This document shows positions 41,609 through 46,023 of a stretch of DNA of 64,000 nt, in pieces. The number at the start of each line of letters is the position of its first letter. Within the stretch, counting starts at the first letter, position 1. Both the position numbers and the translations under genes were made by a program. This stretch comes from Balneola sp. EhC07 (GTDB lineage: Bacteria > Bacteroidota > Rhodothermia > Balneolales > Balneolaceae). The stretch is taken from the NCBI RefSeq assembly GCF_001650905.1, contig NZ_LXYG01000017.1, positions 186,001-250,000 of the forward strand. Reading direction: 5' to 3'. Under the pieces are notes generated by a model, which did not search any database, was not told the origin of the DNA, and was given only the letters and a program-made list of their open reading frames with translations.

Positions 41609-43060
41609 ATGACAGAGTCTCAGGTTTTTGAATTAGCTGTTGACAGGTACGCTGTTTATGCTTTTATCGGATATCTTGCTCTATTAATCGGCATCGGACT
41701 TTATTCAGCTCGCTTTTCCTCTTCGGGGATCAGCGAGTTTTTTATTGGTGGAAGAAAAATGAATAAAGTGGTGATCGCTCTTTCCGCAGTTGTTTCCGGA
41801 AGAAGTGCCTGGCTGTTGTTGGGAGTAACCGGTCTGGTTTATGTTCAGGGCGCTTCAGCAATTTGGGCAGTAGTTGGTTATATCGTTGTGGAGCTCATTC
41901 TATTTCTTACTTATGCCAAAAAATTAAGGGAGTTTTCGGAAGAACATGATTGTATCACAGTTCCTGATTTCTTTGCAGAACGCTTTGGTGATAAGACCGG
42001 AACATTAAGATCTATTCTTATAATTACTTTTCTGATCTTTATGGTGAGCTATGTTTCCGCGCAGTTTGTAGCCGGAGGAAAAGCTTTTTCATCCAGTTTT
42101 GGGATCGAACAAAATACCGGAGTTTTACTTTCTGCAATTATCATACTGGCTTACACAGTTCTGGGAGGATTTCTGGCGGTTAGTTTAACGGATGCTTTTC
42201 AGGCGTTTTTTATGATCTTTGCATTGGTATTTCTTCCTTTTATAGCCATTCAGGATTTAGGCGGATGGTCTGTTATGATCGAGCAACTCGAATTTCAGGA
42301 CGCTGCGCTGATCGATCCGTTGGCACTGAGTGCTGGAGCTTTTATCGGTTTTATGGGGATTGGTTTAGGTTCGCCGGGTAATCCTCACATTCTATCCAGA
42401 TACATGGCCATTGATGATGCTAAGAATTTACGATTTGCTGCGGGGATTGGAACCTTCTGGAATATTGTGATGGCAGCAGGAGCGGTATTAATAGGCTTGG
42501 TAGGAAGAGCATATTTCTCAAGCATTGAAATGCTTCCCGGCGCTGATTCTGAAAACTTATATCCGTATTTAGCACAACTTCATTTACATCCTGTTCTATT
42601 TGGGATTGTGATTGCGTCCATTTTTGCAGCGATCATGTCAACAGCAGATTCGCAGTTGTTAGTTGCCGCGTCCAGTGTGGTTCGGGATTGGTATCAAAAG
42701 ATCTTAAAGAGAGACGAAGAAATTTCCCAAAAGAAATTGGTGCTGTACAGTAGGTTAGTTGTCGTTGCACTTGTGGTAGTAGCACTTCTTTTTGGGTTAG
42801 TTGCTCAGGAATTGGTGTACTGGCTGGTACTTTTTGCCTGGGCAGGATTGGGAGCTGCTCTCGGACCAACTTCAATTCTGGCACTTTACTGGAAGGGAAC
42901 CACCAAAGAAGGAGTAATTTCAGGAATTATTACCGGAACACTGGTAACCATTGTCTGGTACTTTATCCCTGTTCTGAAAAGCAGTATGTATGAACTGGTT
43001 CCGGCCTTTATTGCAAGTGGATTGGTAACAGTTTTGGTGAGTAAGTGGACTAAAGAATAA
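41609..43060 (+). CDS. putP: Sodium/proline symporter (SSS family)
   Basis: The 483-residue protein has 13 likely helices and SSS features: GGRKMNKVVIALSAVVSGRSAWLLLG, IVVELILFLTYAKKLREFSE, FGSPGNP-type GIGLGSPGNPHILSRYMA, and SIFAAIMSTADSQLLVAAS. The pattern matches PutP rather than glucose or acetate carriers. It imports proline with Na+, feeding glutamate metabolism beside gdhA. It lacks a visible Shine-Dalgarno site because the heptad array runs up to its ATG. Confidence 0.93.
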   Translation: MTESQVFELAVDRYAVYAFIGYLALLIGIGLYSARFSSSGISEFFIGGRKMNKVVIALSAVVSGRSAWLLLGVTGLVYVQGASAIWAVVGYIVVELILFLTYAKKLREFSEEHDCITVPDFFAERFGDKTGTLRSILIITFLIFMVSYVSAQFVAGGKAFSSSFGIEQNTGVLLSAIIILAYTVLGGFLAVSLTDAFQAFFMIFALVFLPFIAIQDLGGWSVMIEQLEFQDAALIDPLALSAGAFIGFMGIGLGSPGNPHILSRYMAIDDAKNLRFAAGIGTFWNIVMAAGAVLIGLVGRAYFSSIEMLPGADSENLYPYLAQLHLHPVLFGIVIASIFAAIMSTADSQLLVAASSVVRDWYQKILKRDEEISQKKLVLYSRLVVVALVVVALLFGLVAQELVYWLVLFAWAGLGAALGPTSILALYWKGTTKEGVISGIITGTLVTIVWYFIPVLKSSMYELVPAFIASGLVTVLVSKWTKE

Positions 43061-43080
43061 AATCAAGGTTTTGACATTTC

Positions 43081-43610
43081 TGTAGATGTTAGATAATTCT
43101 TTGACAAAATTTCTTTATACCAACCTCAATATTGCAAGCAGGTCATCCCGTCCGCCAGCTGGCGGATCGGGATCTTACGTAAAGACTTTTAGTATGTTCT
43201 TGTTTACCATCCTCTTAAGGTATCATACCAATCTTCTAACTTTGGATTGTTTTGCTTTACCAGATTCCATTTCCACTGTTTATGCCAATTCTTTAGTTGC
43301 TTCTCCCTTGCTATAGCATCACTTATATTATCGTATTCTTCGGCATATATAAGAACGGTTAGTTTATACTTTGAAGTAAATAAAGAGCCTTCTCCCAATT
43401 TATGTTTCCACACTCTTGAATGAATGTTATTGGTAACTCCGATATAAATCGTAGTTCTTCGATAGTTAGTAAGAAAGTACACATAGCCTTTGTTCATAGT
43501 AAGTAAGACTGTTTCAAGAGCCATTCCTTACAAAGATCCCGAAACAAGTTCGGGATGACCCTTTATATTTTACTGTTCAAAAACTGTCATCGAATTACCT
43601 GACATCTACA
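43081..43610. mobile_element. Nested inverted-repeat cassette carrying a GIY-YIG nuclease
   Basis: Outer inverted repeats of 26 bp (43081-43106 against 43585-43610, 22 matches) surround inner ones. The left inner end (43141-43176) is GGTCATCCCG, a hairpin, then CGGGATCTT. The right end (43534-43560) is its reverse complement with a different hairpin loop. The only gene inside is the GIY-YIG nuclease. It lies between putP and a DoxX-like gene. Confidence 0.75.
43204..43497 (-). CDS. Single-domain GIY-YIG endonuclease
   Basis: The ATG at 43497 gives 97 residues; the frame extends to 43524. The fold's motifs are present: YVYFLTN (GIY strand) and IYIGVTNN (YIG strand) around residues 5-22. Arg28 in HSRVWKHK and Glu65 in AIAREKQLK follow as catalytic residues. 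These tiny nucleases are like the UvrC N-terminal domain and homing enzymes. The location within inverted repeats suggests that it acts on, or spreads with, the repeat. Confidence 0.9.
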   Translation of the reverse strand: MNKGYVYFLTNYRRTTIYIGVTNNIHSRVWKHKLGEGSLFTSKYKLTVLIYAEEYDNISDAIAREKQLKNWHKQWKWNLVKQNNPKLEDWYDTLRGW

Positions 43611-43629
43611 ATTTCGAGCAAAGCGTGAC

Positions 43630-43724
43630 GGAGGATGGTGTGTAGTTTAAAAGCTCATAAACTTCACAACATCCCTCGGATTCAATCGAGAACTGTCGAT
43701 TGAATCATCTCCCTTCAAAGGGAG
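43630..43724. repeat. Long composite palindrome, copy 1
   Basis: GGAGGATGGTGTG (43630-43642) pairs imperfectly with CACAACATCCCTC (43665-43677). A perfect 11-bp stem GATTCAATCGA (43679-43689, 43696-43706) follows, then CTCCCTT-CA-AAGGGAG (43709-43724). A copy of the whole arrangement lies at 46837-46964. Confidence 0.8.
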
Positions 43725-43732
43725 AATGGTAA

Positions 43733-44209
43733 TCAACGAGACTCTGTAAGTTCAGAGTATTCAGTGATCAACCTACCACCACGAACTGTTGCTCCTAATA
43801 CCAAACCGGCACTTACCAAAACCAGATTTTTAAAGATGTACTGGCCTTCCAGAGTTAAGCCAAAAGGAAAACTTGTCCACACAACATCAGGTAAAAGAAA
43901 AACAGGAAGCACAGTTCCGGGCATTTGCAGAAACAGAAGTAGTAAGGTTGTTCTCATAAATTTTCCGGCAATCAGTCCAATTCCGATCAAGACTTCCCAT
44001 GTTGCCAATATCGGAATGAACAAGTCAGGATCAACAAAATAAACGGTATTTCGAACCAGCTCTTCGGCAGGACTTAATCCCGGGAAGAACTTCAGAGCAC
44101 CAAACCAGAAGAAGATAATTCCCAGCCCAATTCTAAGCGAGCTCAATCCGTACTTAGCCATCCATTCAGTAATTAGGATATCTGCTTTATCGAAATATTT
44201 CTCAAACAT
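43733..44209 (-). CDS. DoxX-family membrane protein
   Basis: The 158-residue protein has four membrane helices and the pattern [28 protein letters not shown], typical of DoxX/YkgB proteins, followed by [17 protein letters not shown]. Some DoxX relatives handle thiosulfate or act in redox stress; this one's role is open. The 3' end adjoins a palindromic repeat, and the gene is monocistronic. Confidence 0.88.
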
Positions 44210-44319
44210 GATAGGTAGGATTTGTTTGAGAGAAATTTATAAATAGAATATGAAGAACTGATGAAGTAAATAATTCAGACTTTGAATAACTTCATTTAAC
44301 CAGTATAAAAGAAATAAAT

Positions 44320-45420: not shown

Positions 45421-46023
45421 TTAAAAATCTACTAAAAATTCATCAGAAATTGTCTGCTTGCAGAAGGCTCTAAACTCTTTATGGTCAATAGGAAGTTTAA
45501 ATAAATCTCTGGCTAATTCCTGATTACATAGCTTTCCTTTTCGAAACCCTGCATAATCCTGATACGAAGAAAACTCCCAGTCTTCTAGTTTAGTAACCAG
45601 TTTGGCTCTAATAGGATTTTGATGGATGTACAAGAAACAATTGACTCCATAATCATTATGAGTTTTTGATTCTTGAGCCAGTGATTTTGCCTTAGCTCTA
45701 GCACGGAATAAAGATCCCGATCGATTCAATTTTTTGTTGACCGCTTGCGTATAAGAACTTTGAAGAATCCCGATACTCCTGTTTAGGGTGCCAACTTTAT
45801 TCGATTCTTGAATGTTATCTGAAGAATCGTATTCGGATTTTACTTGAAATAAAAAATGATAATGATTCGGCATTAAACACCATGCCAATATGTCAACGTG
45901 TGGAACAAGGTGTTTTTCAACTTTCTTTAAAAGATACAGATAATTTTCTCGTTCAAAGAAAAGAGGTTCTCTGTTATTTCCTTGATTATAAACATGATAG
46001 GTATGCTCTGGAAGAAATTGCAT
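45421..46023 (-). CDS. REP-associated tyrosine transposase (RAYT, Y1/HUH type)
   Basis: The 200-residue protein has the HUH motif in MPNHYHFLFQ (His54, His56) and a YIHQNP stretch (Tyr132). By comparison with E. coli TnpA-REP this should hold the catalytic tyrosine. There is also SYTQAVNKKLNRSGSLFRARAKAK and WEFSSYQDY. RAYTs cut single-stranded REP hairpins and are believed to spread REP sequences. The protein looks intact. It is flanked by direct copies 2 and 3 of an A-linker-B REP doublet, with a third 0.7 kb away. This gives the expected 'REPtron' arrangement. Confidence 0.92.
   Translation of the reverse strand: MQFLPEHTYHVYNQGNNREPLFFERENYLYLLKKVEKHLVPHVDILAWCLMPNHYHFLFQVKSEYDSSDNIQESNKVGTLNRSIGILQSSYTQAVNKKLNRSGSLFRARAKAKSLAQESKTHNDYGVNCFLYIHQNPIRAKLVTKLEDWEFSSYQDYAGFRKGKLCNQELARDLFKLPIDHKEFRAFCKQTISDEFLVDF

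Follow-up and report, generated by a model that had tools for sequence, protein, structure and literature searches.

Two REP-based systems are among the described ones closest to the locus analyzed here. CGTC REPs are repeats with an unpaired CGTC, TGTC, or CCTC tag, a stem beginning with AT, a short loop (typically 4 to 5 bp), and a CCA-like tail; they form dimers, often heterodimers, are frequent in many bacterial genomes, and make up a superfamily that includes Neisseria dRS3 and Rickettsia RPE-4 and RPE-6 (Di Nocera, De Gregorio, and Rocco 2013, PMC3733652). This superfamily "apparently lacks a dedicated transposase": the 2013 survey associated no transposase gene with it, and GIY-YIG nucleases go unmentioned there (PMC3733652). 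The other system is RAYT or TnpA-REP (REPtron, REPIN), in which one small nuclease gene lies between inverted REPs, single REPs and REP doublets are abundant in the same genome, and particular REP types accompany particular enzyme lineages among relatives. The locus described below resembles it on all of these counts, the last of them suggestively. However, the RAYT enzyme is an HUH tyrosine nuclease and its REPs carry a GTAG tag, whereas here the enzyme is a GIY-YIG nuclease and the tag is GTC; because both enzyme fold and tag differ, the arrangement is REPtron-like without belonging to the RAYT/REPtron family. Among openly licensed PMC papers, we found none in which CGTC REPs, dRS3, or REPtrons are linked to a GIY-YIG nuclease. 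Many bacteria, pathogens included, carry CGTC REPs, and what enzyme mobilizes them has been a standing question (PMC3733652). Its recurrent pairing with them in many phyla makes the nuclease a testable candidate for what spreads these repeats, and the question can now be put directly to a protein of ~100 aa and a 30-nt hairpin. If the candidate is correct, a GIY-YIG enzyme would serve as the mobilizing enzyme of a DNA element and the origin of one class of intergenic repeats would be explained.

Nested layout of the locus

The element occupies positions 43081 to 43610 of the window (the whole stretch of 64,000 nucleotides that was analyzed), in intergenic DNA with a sodium:solute symporter gene on one side and a DoxX-like gene on the other. 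The host genome (G000) is 3.62 Mb, and its close relatives are Balneola MAGs. Outer 26-bp inverted repeats enclose two inverted hairpins, which in turn enclose a minus-strand open reading frame. The outer repeats (43081..43106 on the plus strand, TGTAGATGTTAGATAATTC..TGACA, and 43585..43610 on the minus strand) agree at 22 of 26 positions (85%), exactly as the first-pass annotation had counted. Taken alone, this match is barely above chance, with 40 shuffles of the region peaking at 21 of 26; we accept the terminal inverted repeat (TIR) as real because it belongs to a multicopy family, the pattern TGTAGATGTNANNTAATTC..TGACA having 45 matches in G000 at up to two mismatches and its reversed control none. 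Inside the TIRs, the left REP (GGTCATCCCG-TCCGCCAGCTGGCGGAT-CGGGATCTTACG, 43141..43179, plus strand) and the right REP (GGTCATCCCGAACTTGTTTCGGGATCTT as read on the minus strand, 43533..43560) both have their tags outward, and the left REP is found around other copies too. The inner ends had been described as agreeing at their outer 10 bp and inner 9 bp: the outer 10 bp are indeed identical (GGTCATCCCG at 43141-43150, with its exact inverse at 43551-43560), while the inner foot TCGGGATCTT matches over 10 of 10 positions (43167-43176 versus 43533-43542) and not 9. Between these shared segments the central stem-loops differ, CCGTCCGCCAGCTGGCGGATCGG on the left and CCCGAAACAAGTTCGGG on the right, again as first reported. 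An Rfam search of 42500-44300 returned no RNA family match.

Three relatives (G001, G002, and G007) carry an empty site, TTTTGTCATTTCGAGCAAAGCG, at this locus, reading GTC-ATTTC-GAGCAAAGCG, whereas the filled site in the window reads GACATTTC-[530 bp]-ATTTCGAGC with ATTTC on both flanks (43076..43080 and 43611..43615). The whole 530-bp outer unit therefore inserted with a 5-bp target duplication, and the last move at this locus was that of the outer TIR element and not of the inner REP-GIY-REP unit. Empty sites, which the first-pass annotation had proposed to look for, are thus present for the outer unit; its proposal of a miniature element driven by the nuclease is supported in part, for the nuclease is paired with the inner hairpins, whereas nothing connects it with the insertion of the 530-bp unit. 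The insertion landed in another GTC-type repeat doublet, at its foot, and further copies of the outer TIR also lie immediately 3' of GTCATCC or GTCATTC; the element (ends TGTAGATGT..ACATCTACA) probably prefers REP feet as insertion sites. IS1397-type elements also choose REPs as their targets.

With its TIRs, target duplication, multiple copies, and lack of a transposase, the outer layer has the makeup of a MITE or non-autonomous TIR element. It resembles the MITEs and TIR elements that insert into REPs in its TG..CA ends, 5-bp duplication, and insertion at REP feet, but no autonomous transposase was found for it. Its copies contain REP-GIY-REP units, gene-less units of 145-147 bp with one symmetric hairpin, or non-coding units of ~550 bp; five elements of ~510-780 bp (L070, L071, L073, L075, and L076) share the same outer TIRs around a variable, rearranged, and apparently non-coding interior. 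No transposase lay between the TIRs in any of the copies read, and the outer TIR was accordingly rejected as an autonomous unit. REPs and nuclease gene occur without the outer TIR at L009 and L005, and the REP-GIY-REP unit therefore exists independently of it. Two other features lie close by in the window. A second repeat family adjoins the element at 43633-43730 (a GATTCAATCGA..TCGATTGAATC palindrome with CTCCCTTTGAAGGGAG) and recurs at many other sites in Balneola genomes, and ~2 kb from the GIY-YIG element, at 45421-46023 on the minus strand, a 200-aa protein resembling Y1/REP-associated tyrosine transposases is encoded, with a match to PF01797 and one to NF047646 that falls below the cut-off.

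A single-domain nuclease between CGTC-type REPs

The open reading frame at 43204-43524 on the minus strand (106 aa) contains a GIY-YIG domain (Pfam PF01541; E = 1.4e-13, 51 bits, above the cut-off), in agreement with the original identification of a GIY-YIG nuclease between the repeats. The inner ATG at 43497, which would give a protein of 97 aa (43204..43497), is the more likely translation start, because the first ~9 residues of the longer frame are poorly predicted in the AlphaFold2 model (pLDDT 89). When the predicted structure was compared with solved folds, UPF0213 protein BH0048 (1zg2) was nearest, followed by Slx1 and the UvrC N-domain. The catalytic Tyr-Tyr-Arg-Glu-Asn signature is complete, and across 17 homologs Y16, Y27, G29, R37, and N93 are invariant and E74 nearly so. 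In catalytic domain, signature residues, and predicted fold, the nuclease belongs with the GIY-YIG superfamily (I-TevI, UvrC N-domain, Slx1, UPF0213), but it differs in having no extra DNA-binding domain, in lying outside introns, and in being flanked by REPs; UvrC and Slx1-Slx4 have a partner domain, whereas no domain beyond GIY-YIG was found in this single-domain protein. The intron- or intein-like context of GIY-YIG homing endonucleases is absent, and a homing-intron setting was rejected for a gene that is intergenic and REP-flanked. Between 0 and 16 copies of the gene are present per genome, intact and broken, with many pseudogenes. Close to a second, distantly related GIY-YIG gene (L002, G000 C14:99997-100215) are a symmetric REP palindrome and one copy of the outer TIR.

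By their sequence features, the hairpins flanking the nuclease are CGTC-type REPs, an already described superfamily, and not peculiar to this element. GGTCATCCCG occurs in 41 copies in G000 (its reversed pattern in 0) and full hairpins of the form GTCATCCNGAANTNNTTTCNGGATC in 71 copies; the REP has 71-78 copies in this genome, and high copy number and inverted dimers are both found here, as in other CGTC REPs. The unpaired GTC tag is present, with a variable preceding base that is G in the window, and the stem opens with A-T pairs (GTCAT..ATC) in the window and at most loci, with GTCAC..GTC and GTCGC as variants at some. Tails are CCA or CCAG at alphaproteobacterial, Neisseria, and Patescibacteria loci and CTT or CTG in Balneola, the tail at the locus here being CTT. 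The Balneola REPs resemble the superfamily in tag, AT stem, and formation of dimers and heterodimers, but differ in their mostly CTT tails and in some loops longer than 4-5 bp. Heterodimeric pairs whose loops or stems differ are frequently seen in these genomes and likewise in the published survey (PMC3733652); the swapped loops noted at first are an ordinary property of such repeats. On Sinorhizobium megaplasmids (L257, L328, and L329), related strains differ at orthologous positions in that the tail and tag of CCTC-tagged REPs are swapped (ATCCAG versus ATGAG), which suggests exchange at the foot of the hairpin.

Pairing of the nuclease family with CGTC REPs across phyla

The nuclease family and CGTC REPs are physically paired across many bacterial phyla. 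At 51 GIY-YIG loci from many phyla, picked by protein similarity alone, GTC-tagged hairpins with an 8-bp stem were counted by distance from the gene, with seven permuted tags as control. Hairpin density was 3.07/kb within 150 bp, 1.59/kb at 150-300 bp, and 0.17-0.37/kb beyond 300 bp, an enrichment of ~12-fold in the nearest 150 bp; the permuted tags stayed flat at 0-0.40/kb. REPs of the same sense stood on both sides of 17 of the 51 GIY-YIG genes compared to 0 of 104 other open reading frames at the same loci (Fisher, P = 7.6e-10). An independent, blind inverted-repeat test, in which the best left/right repeat within 300 bp was scored at 58 GIY-YIG loci outside the genus (again chosen only by protein similarity), gave a median of 17.0; in 122 control windows at a distance of 1-2.3 kb, the median was 9.5 and the maximum 14.5; 36 of the 58 loci exceeded that control maximum, and nearly all of the high-scoring repeats were GTCAY..RTC hairpins. 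The first-pass annotation had made its reading depend on repeat and nuclease going together in other genomes, and they do so in many genomes and phyla.

Presence and absence of the two components point the same way. Among 58 relatives, the nuclease was present in all 16 that bear the REP and in 11 of the 42 that lack it (P = 1.6e-7), and the REP pattern was absent from all 31 nuclease-less relatives. In a phylum-wide sample of 148 genomes, 26 of 30 REP-bearing genomes had the nuclease, compared to 46 of 118 others (P = 2.8e-6), the four remaining REP-bearing genomes having no detected nuclease; both P values are optimistic, because the sampled genomes are phylogenetically related. A homologous GIY-YIG gene in N. 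gonorrhoeae sits amid dRS3-type repeats. The pairing is not universal: at 76 of 147 loci no REP was found within reach of the GIY-YIG gene, and around the nuclease genes of L136, L139, L140, and L142 the tags point inward, opposite to the usual arrangement. Two REP-GIY-REP units (L124 and L126, in G030 C5 and C3) lie in near-identical surroundings that resemble integron attC sites (TAACGACCCGGCGTTTAAGCGG..), and these may travel as integron cassettes.

Gene-less derivatives and a proposed element

REP pairs without the gene indicate what becomes of the unit. In 12 genomes, the listed inverted REP pairs within 450 bp comprised 44 with tags outward, the orientation found around the window nuclease gene, and 2 with tags inward; a further 12 pairs were on the same strand. 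In six gene-less doublets (L015, L338, L339, L340, L343, and L348), one end of the nuclease gene or both survive beside the REPs, which makes these doublets internal-deletion derivatives; shorter doublets are reduced to the REPs plus a few subterminal bases. On Sphingobium plasmids TomMM15, TomMM7A, and TomTYG46, the gene stands between two REPs (CGTCACCCCGGGCTTGACCCGGGGTCC-gene-GGACCCCGGGTCAAGCCCGGGGTGACG, the right REP differing by one base in TomTYG46), while at the orthologous intergenic site TomTYG74 and TomTYG64 have a single palindrome, CGTCAC.CCGGGTCAAGCC.GGGGTGACG, with a tag at both ends. Equivalent, doubly tagged symmetric palindromes are present in the Balneola elements that lack the gene (G000 C14:106175 and C18:157499), so the same gene-less form is found in two unrelated lineages. 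This palindrome could be the target prior to insertion, an excision product, or the outcome of deletion between the short direct repeats inherent in paired REPs. Among the loci examined, we found no clean recent insertion of REP-GIY-REP alone with a defined boundary. The L005 locus in G004 was rejected as an empty site, as the right REP foot (AGGATGA) remains there and a deletion scar is more likely from its sequence; S. meliloti pSymB was rejected as a source of empty sites, since in other strains the matches are confined to the repeats, and M103 and C101 carry the gene.

The reading we favor, with somewhat better than even confidence, is that REP-GIY-REP is a compact mobile element whose REPs are its ends, whose nuclease cuts them, and whose derivatives are the REP doublets and single REPs, in the manner of a REPtron and with the outer TIR as a separate layer. 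The two hairpins would be the ends of the inner element and the nuclease its only gene. We speculate that REPs extrude as hairpins or cruciforms, and that the nuclease recognizes and cuts these ends, probably at the foot between tag and stem (GTC/AT), as structure-specific GIY-YIG nucleases do; a one-domain, Slx1/UPF0213-like enzyme would be suited to cutting branched DNA. The family-wide association, the paired ends with outward tags, the variation and decay of gene copies, the deletion derivatives, and the empty sites are observed; that the nuclease cuts and moves the unit, and where it cuts, we infer. Cleavage at the tag/stem junction of both REPs could release the unit, and joining of the outer tags afterwards would leave the symmetric palindrome of the gene-less alleles. 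Supplied in trans, the nuclease might also move gene-less doublets, in which case the single REPs and doublets found at other genomic sites would be non-autonomous, internally deleted derivatives. The inner element would then operate as RAYT/REP (REPtron/REPIN) systems do, except that a GIY-YIG nuclease takes the role of the tyrosine transposase, and the outer TIR element, whose duplication begins directly after GTC, would exploit the same REP feet.

The REPs might instead be targets and not ends, with a homing-like nuclease cutting an existing REP and the gene being copied in from a REP-flanked donor. We regard this as rather unlikely, although the GIY-YIG fold is classically one of homing enzymes (PMC1564403), the genes are far fewer than single REPs, and the gene-less counterparts in Sphingobium and Balneola are single symmetric palindromes, as a prior target could be. 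Gene-less doublets that retain ends of the nuclease gene argue against it, as does the 44:2 excess of tag-outward pairs, which is expected of element ends; REP arms of 25-30 bp are short for recombination-driven homing; and at L131 no REP is seen in the gene-less relatives (G030, G000, and G004), although their divergence prevents exact boundaries from being drawn. It is more doubtful still that the outer TIR element alone is mobile, with an unseen DDE-type transposase moving it and the nuclease and REPs as passengers. The 530-bp insertion with its duplication, and the TIRs that also enclose ~147-bp gene-less and ~550-bp non-coding units, fit such a view, which holds for the last move at this locus; as a complete explanation it is refuted by the REP-only copies, for it covers the Balneola layer alone, these TIRs are missing around the REPs of L009, L005, and almost every copy in other genomes, and the TIR copies read contained no transposase.

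A house-keeping or regulatory role, in which a REP-associated and perhaps domesticated nuclease trims REP cruciforms or limits REP numbers and its proximity to REPs reflects co-inheritance, seems very improbable. Slx1 acts on branched DNA, and the single-domain GIY-YIG/UPF0213 and Slx1-like folds would suit such a task. The RAYT enzyme TnpA-REP has likewise been called a domesticated transposase (PMC8266576). Against this, 0-16 copies per genome with many pseudogenes, presence and absence between close relatives, and multicopy deletion derivatives are traits of a mobile element. Finally, many genomes abound in CGTC REPs (PMC3733652), which might merely fall near nuclease genes in intergenic DNA, but chance proximity is refuted by the decay of hairpin density with distance, the flat permuted-tag controls, the 0 of 104 control open reading frames, and the two-sided inverted arrangement in the inverted-repeat test, leaving it next to no probability.

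Extending the favored reading of a mobile REP-GIY-REP element beyond Balneola, we put at about even the broader proposal that single-domain GIY-YIG nucleases are the dedicated mobilizing enzymes of CGTC REPs in many phyla, Neisseria dRS3 included. They would then constitute a second REP-transposition system, evolved independently of RAYT and GTAG, that cleaves at the hairpin foot and leaves symmetric palindromes. Specificity between enzyme and REP was assessed by sorting REPs by loop (CTTG-like, GCGNAGGC, or other) and placing the labels on a tree of 66 nucleases. Deep covariation was dropped, as the signal vanished in a non-redundant set of 18 proteins below 60% identity (P = 0.34). Across the full tree, the loop label changed 9 times compared to 18.8 times when shuffled, which suggests enzyme-REP specificity among relatives, and in each of four genomes (G007, G012, G028, and G020) distinct nuclease lineages coexist with distinct REPs.
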